Origin: a virus
Length of the DNA: 28,320 nucleotides
IMG/VR virus record: IMGVR_UViG_3300025570_000086
Location: 1 to 28,320 of that record
Reading direction: 5' to 3' (one strand)
In this document: piece by piece, positions 1 through 20,564 of the stretch
How positions within the stretch are numbered: the first letter of the stretch is position 1
Layout of the letters: every line of letters starts with the position of its first letter
The notes under the pieces: generated by a model
The model's database searches: none
What the model saw: only the letters and a program-made list of their open reading frames with translations
What the model was told of the DNA's origin: nothing
Program-made: the position numbers and the translations under genes

Positions 1-21
1 GCCCTGTTCCATTCTGTTCAT
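1..21 (-). CDS. Start of a further minus-strand gene, cut by the left edge
   Basis: An ATG at 21-19 overlaps the TGA stop of the upstream 1629-residue gene in an ATGA arrangement. The same 4-base overlap occurs at other junctions here (10446-10449, 18685-18688, 19539-19542). Only seven codons are visible (MNRMEQG), so no product can be named. A second ATG three codons in is an alternative start. The call rests on the overlap pattern and on the absence of any terminator between the genes. Confidence 0.5.
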
Positions 22-3000
22 CGGAATAGTCCTCCTATGCCTGATCGCATCTCGCCGCCACGGGCCGCGAAGGTTATGTCGTTAGGGAAAAGCTGACGCG
101 CTTTGTTAATGTCAATGCTACTTATGCCGCCAGACTGCGGTCTTTGTGCCGCGCTACCAGCGGGATCAACAGAAGCCGTCTGGACCCCGCTGGGCGCAGC
201 CGTCTGCGTAGAGGGTGGGAGGTCCCTTCTAGGCAGGGGCTGTAGGGAGGCGTCTTCTCGGGTATCCAAAAATTCTCGCGCTTTTTGTAAAAGTTCGTCT
301 ACGTTTTCTTCCGCTTCTTCCGGAGCAACGTACCGCTCATAAAACTCCTGTTTCATCTGTTGTTGTCTTTCAGGAGTTACCGTAAAACGCTTTCTGTCGC
401 CCATTAAAAAGTCGGGCTTCTCTGTTATGACGCTTGTTTCTTCCTCGGGTTTATCTTGAACAAGTGCAGGACGAACCAACCTGTAAGCATAAGAGGACGG
501 TTCTAAAAAGTCTAACATTATGTTGTACGCTTTTAACGCAAACGAGGCTTTCTTCTCAGGAGTTTTTGCCTTTGCCAAAAGAGCCCCTAAAAGTTCTGGG
601 TCTTCAAACATTTTAGTAAGCATAGTCATACGAGCAACTTCTGGGGCTTTTTCCAAAAGAGTTCTGCCCGCGTTTCTGGCGGCTTCCGCAGCACGTCCCG
701 AAACAATCAAATCTCCCGATCCTCCGGGCCCCACTAAAACGTTTCTAGCGCGAGTTCCCGCAGAAGAACCCAGTATAGACAAGGCAATATCTAATCCGGG
801 GCCCATCTTTTTAACCAAGTCTTCGAAGTCTTGTGCGTCACCGCTCATCAAGGTTTGTTCATACTTAGCCATCTCGCCCAACAACTTTTTCATGTTGTCA
901 AGTTGACCCGCCGCCATGACGCCCTTGCTCTCCGCCCACTCTGCCACGCTCACGTTGTTTTGAGAATTAGGCAGAGGTTCAAAAAAATTCTTGTACGCCG
1001 CAGTGGCGCTAAAAGCTCCATTGTTTGCATTAATACCTGCTTTGGACAACACTTCCTCAATTAAAGAAACCCTGAAACCCAATAAAGCTTCTTCGCGGTT
1101 TATGGTGGTTCCTGTTGGCTCAACAATTTTTTTACCCGCGGAATCTTCGGAAATTTTAACTACCGAGGTAGGCCCTTGTAAGGCTGAGTCGAAACCTAAA
1201 ACATCTTCCGCGGCTCCGCGTTGAAGGTCCGTTGTAACTCCCTCCGTTCGCATAGGATCAACTGTGAGATTACCGAGAGGCTTATTTTTAACGTCTAATT
1301 GACCGATTGCCAGAAACAATCTGTTCAAAGATTCAATAGGTTTCTCATTAGAAGGCCGCAGCGCCTTGTTTATTGCGGTTGTTGGATTTTCCGTTCCACC
1401 TACGTCTAAGCCATTAGACTTCATCAACTGGTAGAAACTACTCTGGGCTTTTACCGCATTAATAGATTGTTTAGCTTCAGCCGACGTTTTGTCCAAAAGT
1501 ACGTTTAGCCTGCTCATATTACTTAGGTCAGCCTCTAACGCAGGAAACGCCTTCAACATTAGAGCGTTGTTGTCTTGCTGCATCCACTTCGCCAAGGAGG
1601 TTGGAGTAACCTTCCCCGTAGTTTCGTCTATGGCGTTTTCGCGAATATTTCTAAGAACGTTTTCTGTAGTTCCGCGAACCGTGTTTGCAGTACCCAAAAC
1701 CTTTATAGACTCTTCGTATAAATCAGGCGCAACTTCGTCTAACAGAGACTTGTTAGCTTTTAGCCAATTTTCATATTTTGGTAGGTCCAGCATTTCTGAC
1801 TCAGGGTCTATTACCCCTTCAAAACCTTCCCGAAGTTTAACTACATCTGGTCGGTCAGAAGTTTGAGCCCCAAACAAGTTTCCGCGAAGCGCGGCATCCA
1901 ACTGACTACCATCAATTAAAGTGCTTAAAAGCTGTTGTTGTTGAAATTGACCTACTTGATCCAGTTGTTTTACATGCAAGTAAGCTAGGTCAACACCCTG
2001 TAACTCTCGTTTTAATAATTCCGGTGCAATTTTACGGGCACCTGATTTATCTGTTGCGGACAAATCCCCCGCAAAAGTTTTTGTATAGGCGTTGTTAAAG
2101 GCAACAGAATAAGCGCGGGCCGTGTCGTATGCAAAATTTACGCCTTGCGGAAAGCTCTTTAAGTCATCTAATAGGGCCGTGGCAAAACCATGCGCTAAAC
2201 GCGCACCGTTGGCATCTCCACCAGCATCTAGTTTACGCCCAAGGGCTAAAGCTGTGCTGCGCATTTGAAACAATTCTTTTCCAGAAAGAGTTCCTACGTC
2301 CGCGGTAGCCGTTGCAACTTCGGCAGCGGCTTCAGGGGTCGCAGCGGGGTTTTCAAGCTGCGCCCGTCGTAACGCGGCGGCACTGTCTAGAAACCCTCGT
2401 GCATCAGTGGTAAACGTACTGTCTGGAAGAAACTGACCGCCTCTGCCTTGCGGGTCGCTCTGTACATAGCGTTGAGTTCTACTTTCAGCGTTAGCGTTTA
2501 CCCAATCGTCAACGACGCGTTGAATCTCGTCTGGATTATCAAGGTTTTCTACTCTTCGAGCAACGGCTTGCACGGCTCTGAGGTTATCACGGGCCTCGCT
2601 TTGAATAGAGAAATTAGGGTTGTCTAAATAAGCGTTAAATCTTTGCGTATTCCTTGCAAAGCTTTCTTGGGCCGACTGTACGGCTTCGCTTACGACTTGA
2701 GAGGCTTCGGCTACGGGAGGGGTGTCTAAGTTGTTTTGAATAACCAGCAAGTTTGCATAAGCGTCATATGCTTTTGCAACTTCCCTACTTCTGGGCGTAC
2801 TTGATTTACCCAGTTTGTCTGAGGATATTGCCTTGAACGCCGCAGCTTGTTCTTGAGGTGGTAGCTGAGAAACCTCGTTAACGGCTCTTTGAAACGCCGC
2901 TTGAGCTTCGGGGGTAGCCGCAACACCCGCATAAAGGTCTTGAAATTTTTCCCGCGCCTTTTGTAAACGCGTGTCTACAGCGACGACAGCTTGTTCGCCG

Positions 3001-4907
3001 CTTAAATTAAGCTCATCCGTTTTACGGGCGACAAAAGCGCCTAACGATTTTATTAAATCGTTGTCTAACGGAATTTTAGCTTCTTCAACTAAGTTTGAAA
3101 CGTTTTCGTTCCAATATTTTATAAAATTAGGGACCGAAATAGGTTTACCTTTTTCGTCTACAAACTCGCTTATTTCTACGTTTTCAGGTATTCTTTTCCA
3201 TAGGGCGCGTTCGCGGGCTCTGTCCGCCTTAATAAGTTCGTCAAACAAATCAAACATCTTTTTCGCTTCGTCTTTTGACGCCGCGACGGGCACACCCTTA
3301 GAGTCTTTTTGAATGCGCTTAAACGCGTCGTCTAGATTTTTACGTGCCTCATAAACGCGTTTGTTAATAGAGGCTTCAAAGGTACCCTCCATCATTGCCG
3401 CGGCCTCTTGCACCGCGTCACGGTCCCCCGTAGCGTACAAACCACGTATCTTCTGACGAATGCCGTCCGTTATGGCTTGTTGAGCCGTGGCTCGTTGACC
3501 CTGCAAGCCGTTACCAATAAAATTTAATGCTCCCTCTAATCCCAAAAGAGTGGGACTTAGAGATTTAGTGCCCGCGGTAGGCTTAACGGGGCTTCCGTCG
3601 GAATCCAAAAGGTCACTAAACTCTCGCGAATTTAACAATTTTGCAACCTCTTTAGGGTCCTCTCCAGCGTCCTGCAAAGCCTTAAATAGCCAATCGGCTA
3701 TCTCCCCCTGCAATTTTTCCTGACGCGCCGCTTGAGCCTTGTCTCTAAATTCCTTACCGCCAAACACAAACCCCTGTACGGCCTTTCGGCCCTTGTTAAG
3801 TTGTCCAGCAACGTAAGGCACCTTTTTAGTTAGAACGTCGGCGCTATAACCGCCCAACAAGCTGTACCCAAACTCCTGCGCAAATTCCATAACAGGGACC
3901 GTGGGGTCAAGTTGATTTTGTGCTTGAGCTAAACCTGCTCCGAGATTAGAAGCGCCCTCCGCTAACGCGTATGTAAAAGGTGCTGCTTTGGAGGTTTGCG
4001 CAATGCCCTGTAGCATGGATTCCGCACTAGCCAAGGTGCCTTTTCCAGTAACCGTTGGCGCGTACTTAAACAACTTGCTTGCTTGTTGTCCCGGTTGTTT
4101 TAACATTCCACGCGTTAGGTCGTCTTTAATTAACTCGTAACCAAGACTTATATTTTTGCTCATAGCGTAAGGAATTGCAGAGTAACCAAGACCTTCGGTG
4201 GTGCCTTGCCCTATCTTATAAAGTGCCTCGGCTTCAGGAAGAAGTGGAACGTCGGGTCCAAAGGTAAGTTCTTGTATCTTTTCGCCGCCAAATCGCCCTG
4301 TTGCTGCGGAAAAGAGGCCCGCAACCGTGGGCAGTGCAAAACGAGAGACGCCTTTTTGTACGCCTCTTAAATACGGACCAAAGGCGCTGCCTTTGTATTT
4401 TATTTTATTTAAATAGTCATTCGTAAGTTTAAAACCCACAGCAAAACTACCTGCTTCCGCCAACGCGGGAACCACTTCTTCTTTAACACCTTGAACGATT
4501 GTGCCCAGTTTTTCACTGCCAAAAAGAGTGGGCATCCTAATCGGCTCACCCTCGGTGTCCACAGAGAACAATTCAATTATGTCCATCGGCGTCATGGGAA
4601 TACCGTCGTTAAACGCCCCAGCAAAACCCTTCCCTGTTGTTAAACTAGGGTAAGAAAACCAGTTGGGGTCCTCTGGAAATTCGCCGCTAATCGTTGTGGC
4701 AATGTCTTGCGCGAGGGCCGCGGTCGGGTCGGCAACGTTGTCGTTTCGGTAAATGTTTGTTAACTGGCCCAAAGATTCCTTGGAAAACGTTAACGGTTCA
4801 GGCATACCTCTTGCCGTCAAATTTTCTTGTATAGTGCCCCCGAGGTACGCCGGAGAGGGCTGATAATCGGGTGAAGTAGAAGCAAACTTATTCTGTTCTT
4901 CAGCCAT
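18..4907 (-). CDS. Very large putative internal virion / DNA-ejection protein (1629 aa)
   Basis: I recognise no enzymatic domain. The N-terminal ~400 residues contain Gly/Ala-rich hydrophobic stretches (about residues 185-205 and 310-360) that could be membrane-active. The middle (about 480-1000) is dominated by charged, Ala/Gln-rich helical sequence typical of coiled coils. The C-terminus is Pro/Thr-rich and ends in AARGGEMRSGIGGLFR, a Gly-Gly tail like motifs in neighbouring virion proteins. The gene is last of four large proteins after the tail genes. By analogy with T7 gp15/gp16 and P22 gp16/gp20, that position suggests a protein packaged in the head and ejected into the host. I see no lysozyme or transglycosylase catalytic motif. 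The start at 4907 lies 4 bases after the previous stop, behind a GGGGGC stretch. A tape-measure role is less likely because no long-tail genes are present. Confidence 0.7.
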   Translation of the reverse strand: MAEEQNKFASTSPDYQPSPAYLGGTIQENLTARGMPEPLTFSKESLGQLTNIYRNDNVADPTAALAQDIATTISGEFPEDPNWFSYPSLTTGKGFAGAFNDGIPMTPMDIIELFSVDTEGEPIRMPTLFGSEKLGTIVQGVKEEVVPALAEAGSFAVGFKLTNDYLNKIKYKGSAFGPYLRGVQKGVSRFALPTVAGLFSAATGRFGGEKIQELTFGPDVPLLPEAEALYKIGQGTTEGLGYSAIPYAMSKNISLGYELIKDDLTRGMLKQPGQQASKLFKYAPTVTGKGTLASAESMLQGIAQTSKAAPFTYALAEGASNLGAGLAQAQNQLDPTVPVMEFAQEFGYSLLGGYSADVLTKKVPYVAGQLNKGRKAVQGFVFGGKEFRDKAQAARQEKLQGEIADWLFKALQDAGEDPKEVAKLLNSREFSDLLDSDGSPVKPTAGTKSLSPTLLGLEGALNFIGNGLQGQRATAQQAITDGIRQKIRGLYATGDRDAVQEAAAMMEGTFEASINKRVYEARKNLDDAFKRIQKDSKGVPVAASKDEAKKMFDLFDELIKADRARERALWKRIPENVEISEFVDEKGKPISVPNFIKYWNENVSNLVEEAKIPLDNDLIKSLGAFVARKTDELNLSGEQAVVAVDTRLQKAREKFQDLYAGVAATPEAQAAFQRAVNEVSQLPPQEQAAAFKAISSDKLGKSSTPRSREVAKAYDAYANLLVIQNNLDTPPVAEASQVVSEAVQSAQESFARNTQRFNAYLDNPNFSIQSEARDNLRAVQAVARRVENLDNPDEIQRVVDDWVNANAESRTQRYVQSDPQGRGGQFLPDSTFTTDARGFLDSAAALRRAQLENPAATPEAAAEVATATADVGTLSGKELFQMRSTALALGRKLDAGGDANGARLAHGFATALLDDLKSFPQGVNFAYDTARAYSVAFNNAYTKTFAGDLSATDKSGARKIAPELLKRELQGVDLAYLHVKQLDQVGQFQQQQLLSTLIDGSQLDAALRGNLFGAQTSDRPDVVKLREGFEGVIDPESEMLDLPKYENWLKANKSLLDEVAPDLYEESIKVLGTANTVRGTTENVLRNIRENAIDETTGKVTPTSLAKWMQQDNNALMLKAFPALEADLSNMSRLNVLLDKTSAEAKQSINAVKAQSSFYQLMKSNGLDVGGTENPTTAINKALRPSNEKPIESLNRLFLAIGQLDVKNKPLGNLTVDPMRTEGVTTDLQRGAAEDVLGFDSALQGPTSVVKISEDSAGKKIVEPTGTTINREEALLGFRVSLIEEVLSKAGINANNGAFSATAAYKNFFEPLPNSQNNVSVAEWAESKGVMAAGQLDNMKKLLGEMAKYEQTLMSGDAQDFEDLVKKMGPGLDIALSILGSSAGTRARNVLVGPGGSGDLIVSGRAAEAARNAGRTLLEKAPEVARMTMLTKMFEDPELLGALLAKAKTPEKKASFALKAYNIMLDFLEPSSYAYRLVRPALVQDKPEEETSVITEKPDFLMGDRKRFTVTPERQQQMKQEFYERYVAPEEAEENVDELLQKAREFLDTREDASLQPLPRRDLPPSTQTAAPSGVQTASVDPAGSAAQRPQSGGISSIDINKARQLFPNDITFAARGGEMRSGIGGLFR

Positions 4908-4911
4908 TTAT

Positions 4912-7900
4912 TTAGCCCCCTTTTGCGTTTTGAAGAATCCGCTGCTTGTTTGTTAGTCCGTCGGGACCAACCGCCTCTTGCGAGAGGGCCGCGTTGTTAC
5001 CTTGCGTAGGATTTTCCCCAAACCCAATTACTGGCCCAAGCATTTCTTGTAAGCGTCCTATTTCATTTACCTTGTTTTGATATTTTGTAATCAAGGTTTT
5101 TTCAGTGCCCTGCGGATTAGCAATAATTTCTAACAAAGCCCGTTTTTCTAAACGAAGTTGTTGTCCTAAAGATACCAGCTTGTTAGCTTCCGTTTTAGGG
5201 CTGGAAAGAAGTTTGGTTGGATTAGGAAACAACGTCCCCAACTCTTTTGTCTCGGCATAAGCGGGTCGGGCTACCTGCAACCGCAACGCGGAACGACCCA
5301 GTATTTCGGTTAACGAGGTAAACTGACGGGCGTCAGTAATGTCGCCAAACAACCTGCCACTGAGTTCTGGGGAACCAAGAGGGCCACCTAAAATTGCATC
5401 AAGCCCCGCCGCAATATTCGACCAAAAGCCCGTACCCTTTCGAGCCTGCTGGTAAGCGTCTCGAACACCGTTTTTAATTTTTAAAGCTATTTGAGCGTCA
5501 TTAAGGCCCTCTAACCCGTTTAGCTTAACAAACTCTGCACGGGCTTCCGGCGACATGTCCGTAATGACGTTACTACCGTCCACCAAAAGATTGTCGATAA
5601 GAACTTGATCCATTTTGGCAAGACTAGCCAAGGCGCTTTCGCTTCGTCCTTGAACCTTTTTATACTGTCCAATCATTTGATCCGAAACGCGAACCGCTCC
5701 AACATCAGTTAGCAAACGTTGATCGCCTGTTTTAGGATCAAGGAATGTACGACCATCATAAGACGTTATGACGCCTACATCAGATAAGAACCCTTGACCG
5801 GAGTAAGTTTTGGTAGTTCCAATGCGTGTTATTTTTCGTCCTTCGGCAATGGCTTTGTCTACGACGGCCCGTCCGTTAACCGTGTTTGCGTCCGCGGGAG
5901 CAACGGAACCATCGGGCATTAAAATGTCATAGAAATCTGGCGCAGGAATACCTGTTTTTAAGATTTCTCTAGGTTCTTTTCCCGGTATAAGTTCATACAG
6001 CTTATTGTCATACTCTTTAAACACACCCTGTTTAGGTATTGTCATTACGGGTACGGGTTTTCCGCTGGACATGTCCACAAACTGACCCTCAACAATTTCA
6101 TATTTGGTGCGCGGGTCCTGATACACAATCTTTGCGTTAGTAGGATCAGTAGTATCTATGATTGTACCGTTGATGTTTGTTGTGGTGGTTTTTCTCGTAT
6201 TTATACTTTCGCCATCTGGACCTTTTACTTCTATACCTTCGCCGCTGGAGAAGTCGTAAACTGTGTCACCCATAACACGAATGTCGGGCTTGTCCTGCAA
6301 GAGCTTGAGTTTAGCTTCAGAAATAAGCGCCATTCTATTGTTATGTTCTACGCTGGCAGATAATTTTAAGGTGTCCTGAAGGAGTAAGTCGGTACGGTGT
6401 TGTTGCAAGTCAGCCTGTTGATCCACGGCAAGGTTGCCTTTGTTAACAGCCAAGTCATACATTCTATCGCGGTCAGCTTCCAAAGAAGTTTGGACAGCTT
6501 TAGCGTCGGCAGCTTTTTCTTTTGCCAATTCAAAGTTACCCTCTTTGACCGCCATATCTCTTTCTGCGAGAAGCTGATCTATCTTGGTGTTGTCGTCCAA
6601 AACCTTGTCACGAAGTTTGCTGTATTCCGTGGCATCCTTTTCGTTATCAAACCTTGCTTGATCCATAGTTTGATTAAAGGTTTGTGCCGCTTTCAACCTG
6701 TTTTCAGTAGCCTCTCTAATTTTACGGTCAGCCTCGTCTCTTTCCTTATTATAAGCAGCCAATGTTGTGGCTTGTTTTTCTTGAGCCGTTAAACGCTTAC
6801 CTTGCAGGTCTGCGCGACCCTCTATTTCTTTGCTAATACGTTCCAAAGCTAACTTTTGATCCAGTTTTGCCGCGGCACCCGGATCAACGATAAGTGCTTT
6901 AGTGGCTTCAGGAAGCTCATCGTATATATCTCTCGGAATACCGTTAACACCCTGCGGATCACCCAGCATGAGACGGCTTTTTTGGTCGTCAGTTAATGTG
7001 TTATAAACATCTCTTGGAACACCTTTGACGGGTCCGTCCGCAACTCCAAGAACCTTTTCTTGAGCCGATACGCCTAGATCATCAAAAATATCCCGCGGAA
7101 TACCGTTAACACCTTGTGGATCACCTAGAAGAACTTTTCGTTTATCTTCGTCTGTAAGTTCGTTAAACACTTCTACTGGAATACCTTTGACGCTTGACGC
7201 AGGCTTCGCCGCGGCACCCAACACGATTTTCTTAGTGGTTTCTGGCAATCCGTCATAAATATCTCTTGGAATGCCGTTAACACCTTGCGGATCACCCAAC
7301 ATTACGCGTCGTTGTTCTTCTTGCGTAAGCGTATCAAACGCCACTTTCGGTATTCCTTTAATAGACTCAGCTACGTTAAGCACTACTTTCTGTTCTTTTT
7401 CAGATAGAGTATTGTAAATGTCGATTGGAATGCCGTTAACACCTTGCGGGTCACCCAACAACAAGCGTTCTTGTTGTTTTTGCGTAAGCGTATCAAACAC
7501 TGTTCTTGGAACGCCCTTAACGTCGCCCTCAACCGCGCCGATAACCAATTTTTGTATAGCTGGATCAAGTCCGTCATAAATATCTCTTGGAATGCCGTTA
7601 ACACCTTCTTTACGACCCAGAACAATTTCTTCTTTAACCGCATCTGAAAATGTATCAAAGATTGCAAACGGAATGCCTTTAACAGGGCCTTTTATTGCCC
7701 CGACAACTAAATCTTTGGCCTCTGATGGAAGCGCGTCATATATATCTCTGGGAACTCCGTTAACACCTTTCGCCTCTCCAACAAGAACTCGCGTTTTAAC
7801 GTCCGCGGAAAGCGCGTTAAATATTACCGCCGGAATGCCTTTAACAGGTGCCTCTACAATGGTTTCTACTTTTAATATTATTTTTTGTTGGTCTTCAGGA

Positions 7901-9147
7901 AGATTGTTGTAAATAGACATGGGAACGCCGTTTACAGTAGATTCTTTGCCTAACAAAATAGAGTCTTGCGTCTCTTTAGGTAAATTTTTCCAAATAGACA
8001 TGGGTATGTCTTTTATAGATTCTTCCTTTACTTTTGTTTGAGCTAAAGCAAGCGCGTCTGCCGCAGTTTTGTCGGCAACCGACTGTTGAAGGCTGGCTTG
8101 TAAACCCGCCATACGCATCTGACGGTCCTCGGCGCGTTGTGCTTGTTTCGCGGACAACATACCCGCAGCACGTTCCCCGATCCGTTGTGGAAGCTGTGTT
8201 TGCGCAGCCGCATTGGCTAGACGCTCTGCGATAGAGCCGCCTTGCGTATTACCCGCAAACTGCAATCCTGTTTGAGCAATATCAAACAGCATTTGCGCTT
8301 GAGACATCTTGCGTTGCTCTTCAAGGTCCGCGGCCCGCGCTTCGCTGTCCATAGCACCCGCAAAGTAATCTTGGTACGCTGAAGCATCACGATTTGCCTG
8401 CGCTATAACGGGGTTCAGGGGTTGACCGCCGCCAACTTTAGCTTCGTCTCCGGCTTGGTATCCTCGGACCTCTACGGGCCCACCCTGCCTAAAATTTACA
8501 GGGGGAGTGTTGCCCGCCTCCATCATTGGATCGTTCATCGCGGGCTCCGACGCTTGGGCCATCATTAAACCACCGACGCCCTCGGACATCGGGCCTTCCA
8601 TCTCAACGTCGCCCGCTATGCCCCTCATTAACTCCCCGACGCCGCTGTTTAAAGCGCCCTCTTCCGTCATCATAATGGCGGGCTGGGTTAGAGTTAATAC
8701 CGACTCAGGAGTTTGCTGCGCATCCTCGGGACCTACTAAACCAGCAAGTTCCGCGTACCGTGCATCTAGGGGCATATCGTTGCCCCGTAGTCCGTTAATC
8801 AGGCTTTCGTAGTCTTGGGCTCCGTCTATGTCTTGCATCATGCCTTCCATAGCCATCATGCCCGCCTGTTGACCCTGCGCTTCCGCGCCCATCAAAGCTT
8901 GTTCAGCACCCGCGGGTGGCATGGGGGGAGGAGCCATCGGAGGTGGTGGCATCATGTTGGGGTCCATCGGAGGAGGAGGTGGCATCATGTTGGGGTCCAT
9001 CGGAGGACCGCCCATTGCCAAGCCCTGAACACCGCGACCCATCAAAACGTCTTTTTGACTAATGCGTCCGTCGCCACTTAGGTCGGGAAAACTTGCTTCG
9101 CCGCCGTTGCGAAACATCTGACGCTGCATAACACCACGATTCATCAT
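4912..9147 (-). CDS. Large multidomain virion protein with EF-hand-like loop, 14-copy repeat and coiled coil (1411 aa)
   Basis: Function unknown; probably a virion or ejection protein from its position. Residues 13-36 hold FRNGGEASFPDLSGDG and a calcium-loop pattern (D22, S24, D26, G27, I29, D33). Residues ~46-80 are Met/Pro-rich. Residues ~100-250 are acidic and Met-rich, ending near PVNFRQGGPV; I remember this region as conserved in uncultured marine phages. Residues ~376-757 contain fourteen ~27-residue units alternating between VKG[IV]P and VNG[IV]P types. Residues ~760-960 look like a long coiled coil, and the C-terminal ~450 residues are mixed globular and helical. The gene starts with two consecutive ATGs directly after the upstream TAA, with only a weak GGGG stretch as ribosome site, so translation is probably coupled. 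Its size is of the order of T7 gp16, but I see no sequence similarity to it. Confidence 0.75.
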   Translation of the reverse strand: MMNRGVMQRQMFRNGGEASFPDLSGDGRISQKDVLMGRGVQGLAMGGPPMDPNMMPPPPPMDPNMMPPPPMAPPPMPPAGAEQALMGAEAQGQQAGMMAMEGMMQDIDGAQDYESLINGLRGNDMPLDARYAELAGLVGPEDAQQTPESVLTLTQPAIMMTEEGALNSGVGELMRGIAGDVEMEGPMSEGVGGLMMAQASEPAMNDPMMEAGNTPPVNFRQGGPVEVRGYQAGDEAKVGGGQPLNPVIAQANRDASAYQDYFAGAMDSEARAADLEEQRKMSQAQMLFDIAQTGLQFAGNTQGGSIAERLANAAAQTQLPQRIGERAAGMLSAKQAQRAEDRQMRMAGLQASLQQSVADKTAADALALAQTKVKEESIKDIPMSIWKNLPKETQDSILLGKESTVNGVPMSIYNNLPEDQQKIILKVETIVEAPVKGIPAVIFNALSADVKTRVLVGEAKGVNGVPRDIYDALPSEAKDLVVGAIKGPVKGIPFAIFDTFSDAVKEEIVLGRKEGVNGIPRDIYDGLDPAIQKLVIGAVEGDVKGVPRTVFDTLTQKQQERLLLGDPQGVNGIPIDIYNTLSEKEQKVVLNVAESIKGIPKVAFDTLTQEEQRRVMLGDPQGVNGIPRDIYDGLPETTKKIVLGAAAKPASSVKGIPVEVFNELTDEDKRKVLLGDPQGVNGIPRDIFDDLGVSAQEKVLGVADGPVKGVPRDVYNTLTDDQKSRLMLGDPQGVNGIPRDIYDELPEATKALIVDPGAAAKLDQKLALERISKEIEGRADLQGKRLTAQEKQATTLAAYNKERDEADRKIREATENRLKAAQTFNQTMDQARFDNEKDATEYSKLRDKVLDDNTKIDQLLAERDMAVKEGNFELAKEKAADAKAVQTSLEADRDRMYDLAVNKGNLAVDQQADLQQHRTDLLLQDTLKLSASVEHNNRMALISEAKLKLLQDKPDIRVMGDTVYDFSSGEGIEVKGPDGESINTRKTTTTNINGTIIDTTDPTNAKIVYQDPRTKYEIVEGQFVDMSSGKPVPVMTIPKQGVFKEYDNKLYELIPGKEPREILKTGIPAPDFYDILMPDGSVAPADANTVNGRAVVDKAIAEGRKITRIGTTKTYSGQGFLSDVGVITSYDGRTFLDPKTGDQRLLTDVGAVRVSDQMIGQYKKVQGRSESALASLAKMDQVLIDNLLVDGSNVITDMSPEARAEFVKLNGLEGLNDAQIALKIKNGVRDAYQQARKGTGFWSNIAAGLDAILGGPLGSPELSGRLFGDITDARQFTSLTEILGRSALRLQVARPAYAETKELGTLFPNPTKLLSSPKTEANKLVSLGQQLRLEKRALLEIIANPQGTEKTLITKYQNKVNEIGRLQEMLGPVIGFGENPTQGNNAALSQEAVGPDGLTNKQRILQNAKGG
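6876..8020 (-). repeat. Coding tandem repeat: 14 units of ~81 bp, alternating in two types
   Basis: The array encodes residues ~376-757 of the 1411-residue protein. Each unit follows [VI][KN]G[IV]PxxI[FY]xxLxxxxKxxVLG. Odd units mostly read VKG[IV]P...[FY]; even units read VNG[IV]PRDIYD. The real period is therefore a ~54-residue pair, repeated seven times. Several pair junctions share the string LLGDPQGVNGIPRDIYD or close variants, and recurring DNA such as ggaataccgttaacaccttg is visible at these junctions. The first two units are the most divergent. Confidence 0.93.
8942..9007 (-). repeat. Two-copy 33-bp tandem repeat encoding MDPNMMPPPP
   Basis: Two nearly identical copies containing ggcatcatgttggggtccat lie 33 bases apart. 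They encode a duplicated Met/Pro-rich segment near residues 50-70 of the 1411-residue protein. The feature is low-complexity and probably a flexible linker. Confidence 0.85.
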
Positions 9148-10449
9148 TTAGAATAACCCCGCTCTTTGTGCGCCTGACGCTGCGCCTAATGCACCTATAC
9201 CTAAGCCCAATGCCGTTTGGAAGGGAGAAACTTGTGGGGCAGAGGATGCTGTTAGTGTTGAAGACCCTGTTGGTGTACCAGAGTATATGTCCGACAAGAA
9301 GCCGTACTGTTGGTAAGGCTGCGTGTAACGCTGTAAATTAGACATGCGCAACGCATCCAAACCAGCTTGCTGCACACCGCGCTGATTAGCGCCCGTGGTC
9401 ATTAGGTTTTGAATGTCCTGCGTATTAAGGCCCGAGTACATTTCGCCCAGACCCGCTTGCTGTATTCCAAGCTGACCCAAGCCTTGACCAAGACTACCAA
9501 GCCCCTGACCTAAGCTGCCATACGCGCTTGCCGCCGCCTGACGACGGTTCATGGCACTTTCCATACCGGAAGCTGCAAACTGTTCTGCTGACATGCCCAG
9601 AGCAGCCGCCTGTTGCGCCGCCGCTTGCTGGCGGTTCAGCGCGTTTTCATACGCGCCCTGACCAAACTGACCCGACGCCAATCCCATCGCAGCACGTTGC
9701 TGTGCCGCCGTTTGACCCCGACCTTGAGCCTGTTCAAAAGCTGCCTGTGATCTTTGAGCCGCGCTTTCATAACCCGCTTGACGCATTTGGGCCGCGGTCC
9801 GCGCTTGTTGTTCTAAGGTGTTTCGCCCTAATTCAGCTTCGGCAATGCCCTGCCGTGCGCCGCCAAACGCTCCAGAAGCAACGGCATTTGCGCCCAACTG
9901 TGATTGTTGCATTTGACCTGCACGAGCAACATCTTGTAAAGCCTGTTGAACCGCTTGGTCTTCGTATTCATTCATATAACCGCGGGCACTGCGGGGATCA
10001 TAAGAGCCCGTAGTTTGGGACATGTCCTGCATTGCGCCGTAAGTATTAGCCATCGTAGGAGCGGCGTTGTACTGTCCGCCCGTTCTCGCAAGTTGCTGCA
10101 TTCCCGTAGAAGCTATGCCTTTAGCCCTGTTTGGATCGTACTGTGCGCCCGTGCCCGCAAGAGACGCGGCTCCCGCGCCCATGTAGCCTTGACCCTGACT
10201 CATCATGCCCGCTGCGCCCTGCAATGAGGCAGCACCTTGATTTAGGTAGGGCTGAAAGGCTCCAACGCCCCGTTGGGCCGCGGCTGACGCAGCTTGCTCC
10301 GCGGGGCTTAAACCAGCAATCTGATAGTCCGGCGGTAAATCACCCGTTTCAATCTGCTTTTTAATAAACTCTTGCGTGTCCGCCAGCAGCCCTAGTCGGT
10401 ACGCCTCAATGGCGGGGTCTTGGCGGTTAATTACCGTTTGTGTGGTCAT
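9148..10449 (-). CDS. Ala/Gln/Gly-rich putative internal virion protein (433 aa)
   Basis: The protein is strongly enriched in Ala, Gln and Gly. The best-conserved-looking block is residues ~158-230, with YEDQAVQQALQDVAR followed by GANAVASGAFGGARQG and a charged helical stretch. From memory this block is common in marine phage structural proteins, but no function has been assigned. Residues ~230-340 hold Gln/Ala-rich helical repeats with recurring MGLASGQF/MGMSAEQF-like turns and a GLGQGLGSLGQGL stretch. Residues ~412-427 form a short hydrophobic Gly/Ala segment (ALGLGIGALGAASGA) that could insert in a membrane. The start overlaps the upstream stop by 4 bases and the stop abuts the next start, so the three genes are probably translationally coupled. 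By position and composition it may play a T7 gp14-like or P22 gp7-like ejection role; this is inference. Confidence 0.7.
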   Translation of the reverse strand: MTTQTVINRQDPAIEAYRLGLLADTQEFIKKQIETGDLPPDYQIAGLSPAEQAASAAAQRGVGAFQPYLNQGAASLQGAAGMMSQGQGYMGAGAASLAGTGAQYDPNRAKGIASTGMQQLARTGGQYNAAPTMANTYGAMQDMSQTTGSYDPRSARGYMNEYEDQAVQQALQDVARAGQMQQSQLGANAVASGAFGGARQGIAEAELGRNTLEQQARTAAQMRQAGYESAAQRSQAAFEQAQGRGQTAAQQRAAMGLASGQFGQGAYENALNRQQAAAQQAAALGMSAEQFAASGMESAMNRRQAAASAYGSLGQGLGSLGQGLGQLGIQQAGLGEMYSGLNTQDIQNLMTTGANQRGVQQAGLDALRMSNLQRYTQPYQQYGFLSDIYSGTPTGSSTLTASSAPQVSPFQTALGLGIGALGAASGAQRAGLF

Positions 10450-11969
10450 GCTACTGCACCCCCTTCAAACGCTCGCATTATGTCGTACATCTTACGAACC
10501 CCTTTTTCTCGGCTTCCGTTACCCGCGCCGCGGACGGCCCGTGCGTTCATTACAAACTCACCGTCGGAAAGCATGGCGGGAATGCTGTCGGAAGTCTCGG
10601 TTCCGCGGCCCGCGATATACCCATTGCGGCGAGGGAAATTCTGCATTTCTCCGCCAGCCGCGGCGTATTGAGGTTGGTTTAGGTATTGTTCATACAGTAG
10701 TTGTTCTTGTGACGGCACCACAACGTCATCCATTGTGGCACGGAGGTACGGAACGTCTGGAACGCCAACGCGGTAACGTTCGGGGTTTTCAGCTAACCGA
10801 TCCTCTGACGGAGACGTTCCGTCGTAGGGGTCTTCTAACTCTTCTTCAGGAATCGGATCATACAAACCCATTGGTGCAGCTAAAGCGAGGCCCGCCCCGA
10901 TTGTTGGTACAAGTTTAATGCCGCCTTTGACCGCTTCAGTAGCACCTTGACCAAGTAAACTTTCGACGTGGCTCTGGTACACTGGGCCAGATGGGTCTAA
11001 GGTTGGAAATTGCTTAGACACTGCTTCGGCAGCGTCTGCTAAGTTCATACCCGCCTTTCCTTCCGTGCCCTGCGTATAGAATACGTCTTTAGCTTGTTGT
11101 AAGTATTTTTTGTATCCGGTTAGTTCTCCGGCTCCACCCGCTCCGGCTCCACCCGCTCCAGCTCCACCCGCTCCGGCTCCACCAGCGTCAGCTCCACCCG
11201 CTCCGGCTCCACCAGCGTCAGCTCCACCCGCTCCAGCTCCACCAGCGTCAGCTCCACCCGCTCCAGCTCCACTTGCGTCTTGAGAAGAAAATAAACTTTT
11301 TCCTTCAAAAATATTTCCGCCACTAGGCATACCAAACTCTTGTATTCCCGACCTAAATCCTTCAAAACGTCCCGAAATACCCGTTTTAGTGGTGTTCATA
11401 GCGCCTTTAATACCCGAAGAAATGCCGCCCATTACGCCGCCCATTGCTGCGCTTTTCAAAGCGTCTTTAAAGTTTCCGCCCTGAATTAAAGTAGTAATAC
11501 CGCCGCCCAATGCGCCCGCCGCAATAGCACCCATACCCGGAGCTATTATATTAAGAGCAAGCGGCACAACAATAGGAGCGACCGCCTTAACGATCTTCTT
11601 AACGCCCTTAACAAGCTTCTTAAAGAAAAACTCCGCCTGTCCGGTTCGCGGGTTAATGCTGTTTGCCTCTCCGCCAACCGTGTAACGGTCTAAATTAACC
11701 CCAGAACTGGAAAACGCGTCCATCATCTCTTGAGCTAAACGTGGGTTCTCTTCCAACAACTTAGGGTGAATTACAATCTCACCCTTCTCAGCGTGGATCA
11801 TCTCAGTATCGCCGTTGCGACCAAACCCCGCCATTTTTTCCGCAATTCCGCGGTGCGAATTAATGCCCGACTGCTTTCCAAACAGGAGCCGACTGTCATC
11901 AATCTCATCTAGGTTTGATGTCAAAAAGGACGCCAAACCACCTTCCGGAAGAATTAGTTGTTGTTGCAT
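10446..11969 (-). CDS. Putative virion protein with membrane-active segment, Gly-Ala repeat and IPAMLSDGEFV motif (507 aa)
   Basis: Residues ~52-72 contain GDTEMIHAEKGEIVIHP. Residues ~104-116 contain NPRTGQAEFFFKK, then a basic amphipathic stretch (117-129) and a long hydrophobic Gly/Ala segment (~130-190) suited to membrane insertion. Residues ~233-283 are an almost pure Gly/Ala/Asp repeat. The C-terminus (from ~456) carries GTETSDSIPAMLSDGEFVMN. I remember that motif in many phage tape-measure and other virion proteins, where it ends in GEFVV or GEFVM. The start at 11969 has an AGGGG ribosome site about 10 bases upstream. The organisation fits a protein that is packaged and then forms or lines a channel during DNA ejection, but no family with known biochemistry is recognisable to me. 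Confidence 0.7.
   Translation of the reverse strand: MQQQLILPEGGLASFLTSNLDEIDDSRLLFGKQSGINSHRGIAEKMAGFGRNGDTEMIHAEKGEIVIHPKLLEENPRLAQEMMDAFSSSGVNLDRYTVGGEANSINPRTGQAEFFFKKLVKGVKKIVKAVAPIVVPLALNIIAPGMGAIAAGALGGGITTLIQGGNFKDALKSAAMGGVMGGISSGIKGAMNTTKTGISGRFEGFRSGIQEFGMPSGGNIFEGKSLFSSQDASGAGAGGADAGGAGAGGADAGGAGAGGADAGGAGAGGAGAGGAGAGGAGELTGYKKYLQQAKDVFYTQGTEGKAGMNLADAAEAVSKQFPTLDPSGPVYQSHVESLLGQGATEAVKGGIKLVPTIGAGLALAAPMGLYDPIPEEELEDPYDGTSPSEDRLAENPERYRVGVPDVPYLRATMDDVVVPSQEQLLYEQYLNQPQYAAAGGEMQNFPRRNGYIAGRGTETSDSIPAMLSDGEFVMNARAVRGAGNGSREKGVRKMYDIMRAFEGGAVA
11128..11272 (-). repeat. 15/30-bp tandem repeat encoding Gly-Ala-(Asp) array
   Basis: Units of gctccacccgctcc and gctccaccagcgtca, read on the minus strand, give a repeating GGAGAGGADA decapeptide inside the 507-residue protein. 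The copies are nearly identical in DNA. That fits recent expansion by slippage or unequal recombination, so copy number may vary between relatives. It is not a collagen repeat because there is no strict Gly-X-Y register. Confidence 0.9.
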
Positions 11970-14678: not shown

Positions 14679-17432
14679 TTAGTTTCCTTCTAGGGCTGTG
14701 ATGCGGTCAGTTAATGCCGTAATTGTAGCTTGCTGTTCTTGGATTGAGGCAATCATTAAAGGGATAAGTTCAGTGTATCTCACTGAAAGATAATCCGTAC
14801 CATCTTGCTCGGTGATGTCCATTGCTTCAGGGACAACATTCTGTACGGACTGGGCTATTACCCCTACCTGTGGATCATTGCTTTCATCATTATTCCAAGT
14901 AAACTTTACAGGATCAATTTGCGCCAAATCTGCTACAGCGTTTGTATATCTTCCAGTAACAGTTTTTAATCTAGAATCGGAAACACTTGCCCAAGAAGTT
15001 CCATTAGCACTCAACTGGACTCCATTGCTAACATTCATTACATAGGCTTTGGTATTGTATAGACCAAACCAAGCATTGTATGCTTGAGCATCTGTAAATT
15101 GTATACTAGCATCATAAGCAGTAGCACCAGAACTCATGTTAATCTTTGGCGCACCGCCCCTACCTGTATCCGTGTCTCCGTTGTATGGGAGTTGCCAAGA
15201 TTTACTTGTAGTGACGTAGGCTAACCTAGGATTACCATCCCCATCCGACAGCACGATGTTGTTGCCTGCGGTGCGGATGTCCAAGCCGCCAGCGTTGCCT
15301 GTGTAACGACCAAGGACGGTGTTTTTAGAACCTGTTGTAATGTAGTATCCTGCTTGTTCTCCAATAAGTGTATTATCTGCACCCGTAGTGTTACTATATC
15401 CTGCACTATACCCAACCGCTGTGTTGCGGGATGCGGTGGTGTTGGATAATAAAGAATAACCACCAACTGCTATGTTTGTAGCTCCTGTTGTGTTTGCTTG
15501 TAGAGCAAATGTACCCACAGCCGTATTGTTAGATGCTGTGGTAGTAAGTTTTAATGCTCTAAAACCTAAAGCTGTGTTGTAAGAAGATGTGGTAAGTGAA
15601 AGCCCAGCCTCACCGCCAATACCTGTGTTGCCCGTACCAGTAGTATTACTATATACTGCCTGATACCCAACCGCTGTGTTGTTAGATGCGGTGGTGTTTG
15701 CAATAAGCGCTGAAGTACCCAACGCAGTATTCTGACCGCCAGTTGTATTAACTCGTAGCGAAGAAACACCCATTGCAACATTATCTGCCCCGCCAATATT
15801 TGTCAGAAGTGATGCGTAACCCACGGCTGAGTTATTGGAGCCAGTGTTAGCACTAAGGGCTAAAGTCCCAAAAGCGGAATTGGTAGTTCCAGTAATATTA
15901 GTTTGAAGAGTACCCTGACCAAAAGCACAATTGTTTGTACCTGTTGTATTTGCTTTTAATGCTTGATAACCAAAAGCGGTTGTTGGTGTGCCAGTAGTAT
16001 TAGCATACCCAGCCTGATACCCAACAGCCGTGTTAGCGGATGCGGTGGTGTTTGCCTTTAAAGAATCCATACCGACAGATACGTTATAGCTACCAGTAGT
16101 ATTAAGGTGTAAGGCCCTTTCACCAAGTGCTACGTTCTGTATGCCTGTTGTATTTGTATAGAATGAACGCCACCCAAGTGCCGAATTACTTACGCCTGTA
16201 GTAGTGCTGTATGCAGCCTGATACCCAACTGCGGTGTTTTCGGATGCGGTGGTGTTGGCACTAAGTGCTAAAGTACCCAATGCGACATTCGACCCACCAG
16301 TTGTAATTGCATCTCCTGCTTGACCACCAATGAGGGTGTTGCTTGTGCCAGTTGTAACTGATAGCCCTGCATTGTAGCCAACTGCTGTGTTGTTACTGTC
16401 TGTAGCAGTCGCAAAGTCTTGACTAGCCAATGCCGCATGACCCAAAGCAGTTGAATGATGACCGTTTCTGTCTGTAATTAAAGCCTGCTCCCCAAAGGCT
16501 GTATTATTACTTCCAGCTACTAAGTTAGCACCTGCAAAAGTGCCCATTAAAACGTTGCGAATACCTGTTGTCATATCAAGACCCGCTTGATAGCCCACTG
16601 CTACGTTTCGTGAATTAGCTCCAGCATTTAATGTTTTTAATGATTGATAACCAATGGCTGTATTGTGACCATTAGCATCTTCAGTGCTAAGTGCTTCAAA
16701 TCCAATAGCTACGTTACCATCACCCGTAGTCAAAGCAGTACCAGCCTCATCACCAACGACCACGTTGTAATTACCGTCAGAGGCTATTGAGTTACCTGCG
16801 TTTACCCCTGCACGAAAGTTGGATGTACCTGCTGAAGCAGTGATAATATCTGCACCATCTGCAAAGGTTACGTCAGCCGCAAAGTTAGCTGCACCATCTA
16901 CATCAATAATGTCTAGGTTAGATGTTCCATCTACATCTAGGTCGCCACCTACTGAAGCATCATCCGTAACCGTCAAATCGTCATCAACCAACAAGTCCAC
17001 AACATTAAGCGTGGCAAAGGCATCAACTATCGCGGCACCAGAACCCGCGCCATCTGAGTAAACAGACTTGGTTTGACCCGCGGGAATTGTGACGTTAGCA
17101 CCCGACCCTTGAGAAATAATGATGTTCTGCGAACCGCTGGTGCTGTTCTGAATAAACCACATCTTGCTGACCGTGTTAGGACCAAGAGTAATGGTGCAGG
17201 CGCTGTCCAGCGTTCCTGTATACTTTAAAAACAGGGCGCGGCCCGGATCAGTGGCACCGTCCGCAATGGTGGTGGCGTGTGTGTCCGCGTTAGTCGTAAT
17301 AGCCTCAGTGCCAAAAGCAAACGCTTCAGCAATAAGTTCTAAGTTTGTGTTAGTTGTATCGCCCCAAGAACCCGATTGTTCTCCAGAGCCAATCTCTTCT
17401 AAGCGAAGATCGTTTGTATATACGCTTGCCAT
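14679..17432 (-). CDS. Tail fibre with YadA-like beta-roll and C-terminal S74 self-cleaving chaperone (917 aa)
   Basis: Probable receptor-binding fibre. Residues 1-100 (LRLEEIGSGEQSGSWGDTTN) look like the virion-attachment domain common in marine phage fibres. Residues ~140-195 have GDLDVDG-type beta repeats. Residues ~215-710 form a long series of NTAVGYQAL-like units, the pattern of trimeric left-handed beta-rolls in YadA-type adhesins. Residues 818-917 form the Peptidase_S74 intramolecular chaperone: S818-D819-S-R821-L822-K823 matches the SDxRLK self-cleavage motif, followed by VGVIAQSVQNVVPEA and a C-terminal heptad helix (IASIQEQQATITAL). In known members the chaperone trimerises, guides folding of the fibre and then cuts itself off before the motif Ser, which would leave a fibre of about 817 residues. 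A GGATAAC ribosome site precedes the ATG. The roll sequence is highly repetitive and may recombine. Confidence 0.9.
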   Translation of the reverse strand: MASVYTNDLRLEEIGSGEQSGSWGDTTNTNLELIAEAFAFGTEAITTNADTHATTIADGATDPGRALFLKYTGTLDSACTITLGPNTVSKMWFIQNSTSGSQNIIISQGSGANVTIPAGQTKSVYSDGAGSGAAIVDAFATLNVVDLLVDDDLTVTDDASVGGDLDVDGTSNLDIIDVDGAANFAADVTFADGADIITASAGTSNFRAGVNAGNSIASDGNYNVVVGDEAGTALTTGDGNVAIGFEALSTEDANGHNTAIGYQSLKTLNAGANSRNVAVGYQAGLDMTTGIRNVLMGTFAGANLVAGSNNTAFGEQALITDRNGHHSTALGHAALASQDFATATDSNNTAVGYNAGLSVTTGTSNTLIGGQAGDAITTGGSNVALGTLALSANTTASENTAVGYQAAYSTTTGVSNSALGWRSFYTNTTGIQNVALGERALHLNTTGSYNVSVGMDSLKANTTASANTAVGYQAGYANTTGTPTTAFGYQALKANTTGTNNCAFGQGTLQTNITGTTNSAFGTLALSANTGSNNSAVGYASLLTNIGGADNVAMGVSSLRVNTTGGQNTALGTSALIANTTASNNTAVGYQAVYSNTTGTGNTGIGGEAGLSLTTSSYNTALGFRALKLTTTASNNTAVGTFALQANTTGATNIAVGGYSLLSNTTASRNTAVGYSAGYSNTTGADNTLIGEQAGYYITTGSKNTVLGRYTGNAGGLDIRTAGNNIVLSDGDGNPRLAYVTTSKSWQLPYNGDTDTGRGGAPKINMSSGATAYDASIQFTDAQAYNAWFGLYNTKAYVMNVSNGVQLSANGTSWASVSDSRLKTVTGRYTNAVADLAQIDPVKFTWNNDESNDPQVGVIAQSVQNVVPEAMDITEQDGTDYLSVRYTELIPLMIASIQEQQATITALTDRITALEGN
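15300..16790 (-). repeat. Degenerate coding repeats of the fibre beta-roll
   Basis: Dozens of related segments encode NT(A/T)xGxxAL and NTTGxxN motifs. Recurrent DNA strings include cccaaccgctgtgtt and gatgcggtggtgtt (for example near 15420, 15670, 16020 and 16220). The spacing is irregular, as expected for 14-16 residue beta-roll turns mixed with longer supra-units. The repeats lie wholly inside the fibre gene. Confidence 0.85.
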
Positions 17433-18388: not shown

Positions 18389-18688
18389 CTACATTTTCCT
18401 TATATATTCGGCCAACTTGGGCTGACCCGCATCTTTTATTGCATTATATACCGTAGTACGGTCACTTTGGATAGCCTGTTTCATATACACCGAAATTATC
18501 TTCTCCATCTCGGAGCGATACGCGCGGGCCTGATCCCGTATGGCAGGAGGAGCGTTGTCGGAAACACCAATTATCTTGTTTACGCAACGCAACGCAGTTT
18601 CTTCCGGTGTAAAACCACGGTTATCCGTAGTCTCAACACCAACCTTAAAATCATTAGACATGGACACGCCAAAGGACATATTGTTCAT
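18389..18688 (-). CDS. Small helical protein of unknown function (99 aa)
   Basis: The N-terminus is MNNMSFGVSMSNDFKVGVET. The C-terminal two thirds (TPEETALRCVNKIIGV, IRDQARAYRSEMEKII, YNAIKDAGQPKLAEYI) look alpha-helical and mixed-charge. It overlaps the preceding adaptor gene by 4 bases (ATGA), implying translational coupling and co-production with that adaptor. I do not recognise a family. It could be an assembly cofactor or a small connector subunit. Confidence 0.7.
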   Translation of the reverse strand: MNNMSFGVSMSNDFKVGVETTDNRGFTPEETALRCVNKIIGVSDNAPPAIRDQARAYRSEMEKIISVYMKQAIQSDRTTVYNAIKDAGQPKLAEYIRKM

Positions 18689-19542
18689 TGTTTCGGCCTC
18701 ACAACAGGTCCAGTACGGTATTCATCTGTAACTTCTTTAGCTTCTCCCAGCATCTTCAGTCCCATGATGGCCTCTCCAAACCGTTTTTCATACAACGCTT
18801 CCATATCCTGTTCACCCTTCATAAAGATGTAGGCTTCCATCAACGAGCCGTACAGCATGGCAATCTCAGCGTTGTCACTGAGCCACGAAACAGTGGTATC
18901 CGCTCCAATAGCTGCAATTACTGCGGTAGCCCCCGTGTCACTTCCGGTAATCGTCTCTCCAACAACATAATCTCCACTTGGAATCACAACAGTCAGCGTT
19001 GTGGAAGACGGTACAGAGTTAACTCCGCTAGATTGACCGCTAGTCGATCCAGTAATTGTATCCGCCGCGGTAAAAGTGCCCACAACACTGGTTAACGTTA
19101 GCGTAAAGGCGCTCTGCGTTAAACTTAACGGACGATAGAAGTAGTGTAGCTCAACATTGTAACCGCTGTCGGGTGTTGGAGCTAAGATGAAGTTTTGCAA
19201 GTCGTACTGCGCATAATACCGAGGAGGTCCCGTAACCGCAGCATTCGGGGTAAACGATTGAACAAAGTCAGAGTTTTTAAAGTCTAAAAATATCTGTTGA
19301 GTACTGTCACTGGTAAATGACAAAGAAAATGGAGCTAAAAAATCGTCAGGAGCATTTAAATACTTGTTTCCCGCGGTCAAGGTTCCCGCGGAGTTCTTTT
19401 GAAACAGGCTTAACTGGACGTTTTTTAAGATTCGCTCCTCCGTATTTTTAATAAAAATAGGAAGATTCTTAATAAACGTTGTCTCGTCGTTTTCAGTGTA
19501 ATCCTGTATCGCTGTTTTAAGCGTTGTGTATGTGTAGCTCAT
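18685..19542 (-). CDS. Head-tail adaptor-like protein with inserted beta repeats (285 aa)
   Basis: The N-terminus (TYTTLKTAIQDYTENDETTF...IKNTEERIL) and C-terminus (LSDNAEIAMLYGSLMEAYIF...YEKRFGEAI) are the helical parts of an adaptor of the kind that binds the portal ring in short-tailed phages. Between them, PPRYYAQYDLQNFILAPTPD and YNVELHYFYRPL supply a beta core. Residues ~146-216 interrupt this with two tandem units (TFTAADTITGSTSG and YVVGETITGSDTGATA). These resemble small beta repeats often added to marine phage virion proteins. The gene starts with a 4-base overlap with the 118-residue gene. Assignment rests on architecture and position next to a second adaptor-like gene at 19895-20563. 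Confidence 0.65.
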   Translation of the reverse strand: MSYTYTTLKTAIQDYTENDETTFIKNLPIFIKNTEERILKNVQLSLFQKNSAGTLTAGNKYLNAPDDFLAPFSLSFTSDSTQQIFLDFKNSDFVQSFTPNAAVTGPPRYYAQYDLQNFILAPTPDSGYNVELHYFYRPLSLTQSAFTLTLTSVVGTFTAADTITGSTSGQSSGVNSVPSSTTLTVVIPSGDYVVGETITGSDTGATAVIAAIGADTTVSWLSDNAEIAMLYGSLMEAYIFMKGEQDMEALYEKRFGEAIMGLKMLGEAKEVTDEYRTGPVVRPKQ

Positions 19543-19895
19543 GTTGTCACCGTGACCTCGCCTACCGAGCCTTCTAAAGCTACAGTGTTGTTTATTTCAG
19601 TTGGAAGTTCCGCGGTTCCCGACGTAGACCAGTTTCCGTTTCCTAAATAAATAATTCCGTTGGTAGTTTTAACCATAAAAGGCGTGTTTGTATCAGGACT
19701 TTGAGGACGCGCATCTTTTAAAGCCTGTGGATCAGAAACTTCTCTAAATGGTCCTAGTTGAGGTTGCTTGGCTTCCCACTCGTCCCTGCCAACTAACAAG
19801 CCGTTCCACTCTTTTCGCATGTCTTTATACCGATACCGAAAACCGGATCGGTCAGAAATTGCAAAAGCGTTTTTTCCACTTGCAAATTGAGACAT
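19539..19895 (-). CDS. Small conserved virion protein (118 aa)
   Basis: It opens with SGKNAFAISDRSGFRYRYKD, followed by MRKEWNGLLVGRDEWEAKQPQ and a Pro/Asp-rich stretch. I remember this combination from many phage structural operons, without a defined role. The C-terminal part (GIIYLGNGNWSTSG) may form a beta hairpin and ends in ALEGSVGEVTVTT, nearly matching the tail of the 103-residue protein at 12021-12332. It lies between two adaptor-like genes and overlaps both, so a connector function is plausible. Confidence 0.72.
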   Translation of the reverse strand: MSQFASGKNAFAISDRSGFRYRYKDMRKEWNGLLVGRDEWEAKQPQLGPFREVSDPQALKDARPQSPDTNTPFMVKTTNGIIYLGNGNWSTSGTAELPTEINNTVALEGSVGEVTVTT

Positions 19896-20563: not shown

Positions 20564-20564
20564 C

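Follow-up and report, generated by a model that had tools for sequence, protein, structure and literature searches.

The central part of a viral protein of 1411 aa consists of fourteen tandem copies of what appears, from sequence comparison, to be a previously undescribed two-helix module that fits no named family, and several unrelated modules, this array among them, are exchanged in one central slot of the protein. The gene lies in an IMG/VR virus record of 28,320 bases, analysed whole and called the window below, and its product most likely belongs, judging by gene order, to the ejection (internal virion) proteins, where it takes the position of T7 gp15; it probably assists the passage of DNA through the bacterial envelope. 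The cassette swaps and the changes in copy number suggest that the DNA-injection machinery contains here a spacer or binding arm that is adjustable and evolves fast. The features of the window to which the analysis refers, all on the minus strand, are the following.

18-4907, minus strand: downstream gene of 1629 aa in the gp16 position, part of which matches the 'DNA transfer protein' of phage DSL-LC04
4912-9147, minus strand: host gene of 1411 aa, whose product is predicted, from its N-terminal family and gene order, to be an ejection (internal virion) protein in the gp15 position
6268-6846, minus strand: charged stretch after the array, about residues 768-960, helix-rich as judged from its sequence
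6868-8016, minus strand: whole array of 14 units, residues 378-760, from HMM matches
6868-7029, minus strand: pair 7 (units 13-14), unit HMM
7030-7191, minus strand: pair 6 (units 11-12), unit HMM
7192-7362, minus strand: pair 5 (units 9-10), unit HMM
7363-7521, minus strand: pair 4 (units 7-8), unit HMM
7522-7683, minus strand: pair 3 (units 5-6), unit HMM
7684-7845, minus strand: pair 2 (units 3-4), unit HMM
7846-8016, minus strand: pair 1 (units 1-2; IKDIPMSIW... and VNGVPMSIY...), the divergent N-terminal end, unit HMM
8098-8841, minus strand: N-terminal region that the family conserves, about residues 103-350, which stops just short of the variable slot, from family comparison
9148-10449, minus strand: upstream gene of 433 aa, PHROG match to phrog_4287 'DNA ejection protein' (E 2.5e-4)

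The search of the 1411-aa protein with the unit HMM gave exactly 14 matches, of 29-35 bits each, to units of 26-30 aa that are arranged as seven A/B pairs. The units start at residues 378, 405, 435, 462, 489, 516, 543, 570, 596, 623, 653, 680, 707 and 734, which corresponds to spacings of 27, 30, 27, 27, 27, 27, 27, 26, 27, 30, 27, 27 and 27 residues. Chunk-against-rest BLAST within the protein reached E values down to 5e-28, and self-identity had two peaks, of 27% at lag 54 and 24% at lag 27, its mean over lags 5-119 being 7%, so that the array of repeats is far beyond chance. Identity between units was 46-49% at even separation and 28-32% at odd separation, and among 20,000 label shuffles just 9 split two groups of seven as well as the A/B assignment did; the A/B alternation is therefore real. 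The preliminary description of this DNA had placed a 14-unit alternating A/B repeat at 6876-8020, and both the repeat and its position, to within a few bases, are confirmed. Its distinction of VKG[IV]P and VNG[IV]P types is correct as to the alternation, but the types are not uniform, since unit 1 reads IKDIP and unit 9 reads IKGIP. The LGDPQG linker that it called recurring is present but confined to A units 7, 9, 11 and 13, and position 17, given as lysine in its core motif, is either K or Q.

Comparison of 57 units from ten loci showed that the proline at unit position 5 is invariant (57/57) and that G3, F/Y9, L12 and K/Q17 are near-invariant, with L12 in 48 of the 57 units and P13 in just 12. 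Unit 14 of the window (DELPEATKALIVDPGAA) and the last unit of the relative L007 (DKLPKDAQALIVDPAAQ) share a special terminal form, ALIVDPxAA, and unit 2 of the window clusters with the first unit of L007. At four-fold degenerate sites, 62-65% of positions differ between window units of the same type, for a random expectation of 74%. These sites are near-random while the protein is conserved, and the window units are therefore old copies that protein-level selection has kept alike, not products of a recent duplication of their DNA. The K/N alternation is present in the window, L007 and L014 and absent from L015 and L016. Despite this absence, L016 shows a two-unit duplication, one of its units being 93% DNA-identical to the unit two positions on, and copies one pair apart in L014 are up to 97% DNA-identical, so that pair duplication is recent in these two. 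This pair-apart identity, with the identity at lag 2 in the window, also upholds the earlier proposal that the pair of about 54 residues is the duplicating module.

The family set was made of 80 distinct members from IMG/VR viral contigs with a common N-terminal domain, that is, the best 80 of 257 loci by N-terminal similarity together with loci found via the unit. The unit is carried by 10 of the 80 members in 1-14 copies and is missing from the other 70, a proportion that is not a natural frequency because the set was chosen by N-terminal similarity and by the unit itself. Counts with the unit HMM, some of which vary with the HMM thresholds, were 14 for the window, 11 (8+3) for L016, 9 for L007, 6 for L015, 4 each for L020, L024 and L025, at least 3 for L014, whose contig ends within the array, 2 for L013 and 1 for L048. 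Variation in copy number among relatives had been anticipated and was found. The contigs of L003 and L014 both end inside the array, which may reflect either strain-level copy-number variation or assembly trouble. In L016 (ORF starting at 5958), the three extra units lie near the N-terminus, at residues 107-217, far from the main array, and are of the type RGMPREVFQxLSPExQxKI(L/V)G.

On the maximum-likelihood tree of the N-terminal region, the presence of the array needs 8 changes, at least 7 of which are forced by well-supported branches (9.5 changes in the comparison with shuffled labels); these 8 gains or losses indicate that the cassette comes and goes. Comparison of L007 and L054 showed flanks with 98.7% DNA identity over 2911 nt upstream and 96.0% over 1884 nt downstream, between which lie 983 nt carrying nine units in L007 but 1010 nt of another sequence in L054. 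Comparison of the window and L004 showed 87% protein identity to residue 353 and, after the slot, 41% over residues 768-1055; L004 has no array, unrelated sequence occupies that place, and the two slots differ in length by about 120 residues. A fixed-length ruler was considered for the slot, the length of which is kept in L007 and L054 but not in the window and L004. We do not claim a ruler because of this difference, and replacement by a sequence of nearly equal length was seen in a single near-sister pair, L007 and L054.

Chunk-against-rest BLAST found internal repeats in 19 of the 80 members, and at least four unrelated other repeat types were found in the central slot: a 'V(D/N)...TDPxN' repeat (L045 and L063), a coiled-coil-like repeat (L013, L054 and L042), a 'YNKASGxxVEFDxSTPKGVADY' repeat (L089) and a 'NFRxxTTGxIxTFVxGSPEA' repeat (L094). 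Hairpins of the form FGM[ST]xxxFxxLPxxxxxxLxG are also located in the central slot of L087, L088, L091, L104 and L014, of which L087, L091 and L104 are array-free. In L014 a segment made of one such hairpin (FGMTQDQFESLPVEDQRRLQG), its linker and the following A unit aligns, at E 1e-19, with one made of a B unit, its linker and the A unit that comes next, and the FGM hairpin may well be a relative, and possibly the source or ancestor, of the array unit. Comparison of the FGM-type hairpins with INPHARED gave matches at chance level.

Structure was predicted with AlphaFold2 (AF2) for a four-unit stretch, using 28 rows that were aligned in register and taken from the window and from related loci, and for the whole array, using an alignment of seven rows. 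The two models agree in predicting two short helices per unit, as had been proposed beforehand: a short extended turn, formed by [VI]xG[IV]P, leads into a helix of 4-6 residues, which a turn at L[SPT] separates from a second helix, of 7-9 residues. Confidence was moderate with these shallow alignments, mean pLDDT being 66 for the four-unit model and 69 for the array model, and pTM 0.41 and 0.27, respectively. The inner segments of the array model with a pLDDT below 50 (residues 58-64, 114-117, 169-171, 222-225 and 276-281, model numbering) directly precede A units and affect five of the six B-to-A junctions but none of the seven A-to-B ones. These dips at the pair-to-pair junctions make the A+B pair the local unit of the prediction, successive pairs being connected by loose hinges. 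The preliminary description had predicted a solenoid or rod. With a rigid alpha-solenoid or rod the regular spacing of 27 or 30 residues and the two helices in each unit agree; the low pTM of both models, the loss of confidence at the pair boundaries, a unit spacing that ranges from 24 to 30 residues and the lack of any Foldseek match at E<=0.001, in the PDB for both models or in BFVD for the four-unit model, all speak against it, and we regard it as improbable. The array as modelled looks like flexible beads rather than a proven solenoid, and the prediction from shallow alignments argues against a rigid solenoid without disproving one.

Two further phages, L026 and L027, each have a protein with a single copy of the unit, and L028 carries a near copy of L027. 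The L026 and L027 proteins are related to each other (24% over about 300 residues), and no C-terminal homology was detected between them and the array family. With hhalign, the probability of a match between them and the array family was 90% with the unit and 0.07% with the unit masked. The gene directly upstream in L026 matches PF24072 T7_gp14 (1e-10) and a phrog_376 tail protein is located further upstream in both phages; because of these neighbours, the two unit-bearing proteins appear to be in the gp15 position. The scan of 2.9 million viral contigs with the exact back-translated core motif gave seven matches, all of them in known unit carriers and in such a gene, and in 17 virus records searched whole every clear unit match was in one gene, of the gp15-position type. 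The tblastn search of isolated phages (INPHARED) and plasmids (PLSDB) with four units gave chance-level matches only (best E 0.2). Two motif scans of GTDB genomes, within their sensitivity, did not reveal the unit: one gave no confirmed relative, and the sole match of the other, made with the exact motif, was on a spirochaete contig and was taken as chance, the motif being in no long open frame.

The unit is conserved beyond the needs of a mere spacer, down to a single copy elsewhere, which hints at a binding partner. The array could then be a multivalent binding array in which each helix-turn-helix unit docks one partner and copy number raises avidity, the partner being a second ejection protein (e.g., the 1629-aa neighbour), the portal or tail channel, the packaged DNA or a host envelope protein. 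Such a role, the main alternative to the spacer proposed below and one that we consider possible though less probable, agrees with the residue-level conservation of P5, G3, F/Y9, L12 and K/Q17, with the hhalign result on otherwise unrelated proteins in the gp15 position, with the restriction of the seven exact-motif contigs to such a gene and with a general shape like that of the UBM, the ubiquitin-binding motif of eukaryotes, a 30-residue helix-turn-helix binding module (PMC8468184). However, none of the data indicates a partner, and an adaptor that is needed should be harder to lose than a unit that is missing from L004, L054 and 70 of 80 family members. A spacer role and a binding role are compatible and can coexist.

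Assignment of the host protein depended on its neighbours. According to a review on the ejection proteins of podophages (PMC8954989), gp15-like genes sit between a gp14-like gene and a larger gp16-like gene, and their products, of 431-982 aa, are mosaic and are matched mainly through size and synteny rather than sequence. A homolog of the 433-aa protein is located directly upstream in 74 of 74 relatives, among the 80 distinct members, where the ORF is visible, and a long ORF is usually located downstream of the family gene. The isolate DSL-LC04, the sole annotated phage that matches the 1411-aa protein, has the gene order tail tape measure, phrog_4287 homolog (the ortholog of the 433-aa protein, E 6.9e-9), 1411-aa homolog and DNA transfer protein, the last of which matches the 1629-aa protein with E 2e-5 over 88 aa. 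The window gene thus has a phrog_4287 homolog upstream and a larger ORF downstream, as in DSL-LC04, and from its gene order, with the synteny criterion of the review, we assign the 1411-aa protein to the ejection class as the most likely one; the neighbours would function as analogues of gp14 and gp16. At 1411 aa it exceeds the reported size range, family members being from 550 (cut) to 1411 aa long. No similarity to T7 gp15 or to a solved ejection protein was found (phmmer against the PDB gave one mediator subunit, E 0.15), and the whole protein gave no convincing Pfam, PHROG or PDB sequence match. A simple hydropathy scan found no membrane-spanning segment in the 1411-aa protein and no TM-like segment in the upstream 433-aa protein.

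A protein that is not ejected and belongs to the tail or head structure, such as a tail-tube component or a tape-measure-like protein, is slightly less probable still than the solenoid. The gene two upstream, of 507 aa, matches tape-measure C-terminal motifs and the names given in public records to the corresponding region vary, but the window has two matches to PF24175 SU10_adaptor, which belong to a short-tail gene set, the order of the block fits ejection operons and the adjoining genes match ejection and DNA-transfer annotations.

Several other observations were made on the window and its relatives. The two PF24175 genes, at 18685-19542 (E 8e-21) and 19895-20590 (E 1e-18) on the minus strand, are close to each other, and the phage may carry two adaptor-type proteins. 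The 507-aa protein (10446-11969, minus strand) has a Gly-Ala-Asp low-complexity stretch, and its C-terminal motif is common to many tape-measure families. A 224-aa protein (20565-21239, minus strand) located amid structural genes matches phrog_3704, annotated as ferredoxin (E 2e-28), and a 917-aa tail fibre- or spike-like protein (14679-17432, minus strand) has internal DNA repeats at about 15361-16305. Residues 22-33 of the 1411-aa protein (9049-9084, minus strand) form a canonical EF-hand/dockerin-like calcium loop, DLSGDGRISQKD, and similar loops are found in L015 (DLSGDGKITQKD) and L020 (DFNKDGKITRAD).

An exchangeable beads-on-a-string spacer in a podophage ejection protein is the role that we propose, with about even confidence. 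The 1411-aa protein, whose gene position is equivalent to that of the periplasmic-tunnel protein T7 gp15, would be packed in the head and expelled via the tail. Its central slot, between the conserved N-terminal domain and the helical and C-terminal part, holds an exchangeable cassette; in the window this is predicted to form seven beads of about 54 residues joined by flexible hinges, each bead being two helix-turn-helix units of the form [VI][KN]G[IV]P-helix-L[SPT]-helix. On their way out of the head, podophage ejection proteins pass an aperture of about 30 Angstrom, and they rebuild a periplasmic conduit; their helical make-up has been suggested to ease their partial unfolding (PMC11440229). 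The array units contain no cysteine, and a chain of such small helical hairpins would be well suited to that passage: the beads could traverse the portal and tail channel, which are narrow, one at a time or in a partly unfolded state and could refold in the periplasm to give an extended spacer or sheath. The length of this spacer or sheath would be set by the copy number of the unit, which pair duplication would alter, and recombination within the conserved flanks would swap the whole cassette.

More tentatively, the unit could be a new transferable mini-domain of ejection proteins that is exchanged as a cassette and is common to podophage lineages in which that protein is otherwise unlike, and its copy number would tune the reach of the periplasmic conduit or the avidity for a host-envelope partner; the slot would then be a hotspot of host adaptation in the injection machine and not in the tail fibres. 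The building of an envelope channel by short-tailed phages and its adaptation to hosts are poorly known, and gp15-class proteins diverge fast and are recognised mostly through gene position. A cassette slot with 1 to 14 copies offers natural experiments on the length and composition of an ejection protein, and the unit motif can be used for spotting ejection proteins in metagenomes. Such a slot would show that diversification in these phages extends beyond tail fibres.

Comparison of the units with named families gave no Pfam, PHROG or PDB sequence match that holds up, and the absence of a named repeat family, which had been supposed at the outset, agrees with this and with the Foldseek searches. 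The units resemble in size and core the UBM (PF14377) found in translesion polymerases, which is also a helix-turn-helix of about 30 residues with a V-F-x-x-L-P core pattern. The AF2 models do show the UBM arrangement of two short helices that flank an L-P turn within about 30 residues, but P13 is found in only 12 of 57 units. The UBM is, however, eukaryotic; PF14377 (curated cut-off 23.3 bits) did not match the window at E<=10, and unit positions 16 and 19, equivalent to the ubiquitin-contact positions L1027 and E1030 of REV1, are not conserved, being mostly D/A/E and K/R, one of them charge-reversed. Membership in the UBM family was rejected on these two grounds. That the units mimic a UBM in an injected effector, as the equal helix-LP-helix pattern and a sub-threshold match of the pair profile to the Pol iota UBM (2kwv, E 0.4) might suggest, is highly improbable given the same two differences, and bacterial hosts are not known to have the ubiquitin system of eukaryotes. 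LRR/VLR proteins show a superficial IPxxVFdxLt pattern, and profile A3 summed weak matches to them (E 4e-5), but the array is predicted to be helical, with no LRR strand ladder, and the Pfam LRR search gave no match at E<=1. This reading was rejected because the E value sums stretches none of which is significant alone and because the AF2 models are helical.

Comparison with SU10 (Kuravirus) showed that the window shares SU10-type adaptors (PF24175) with this phage, in whose head the five ejection proteins, gp20-24, show no resolved core (PMC9509320); the phage search with the 1411-aa protein, however, matched DSL-LC04 alone. The DSL-LC04 protein (WJZ48113.1, OR003939.1) is 31% identical to the window protein over residues 114-352 and has an equal gene order, but it is 645 aa long and the unit was not detected in it. 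The 1411-aa protein resembles the T7 gp15 class in being encoded between the gene of an ejection-type protein and a very long ORF, in its mosaic, fast-diverging composition and in having no membrane-spanning segment, as reported for gp15. It differs from this class in the lack of a sequence match, in its greater length and in its central tandem-repeat cassette, a feature that does not appear in the part of the review on which we draw (PMC8954989). What is new is the repeat module, for which the evidence of cassette exchange is unusual, while the protein class that carries it is known.
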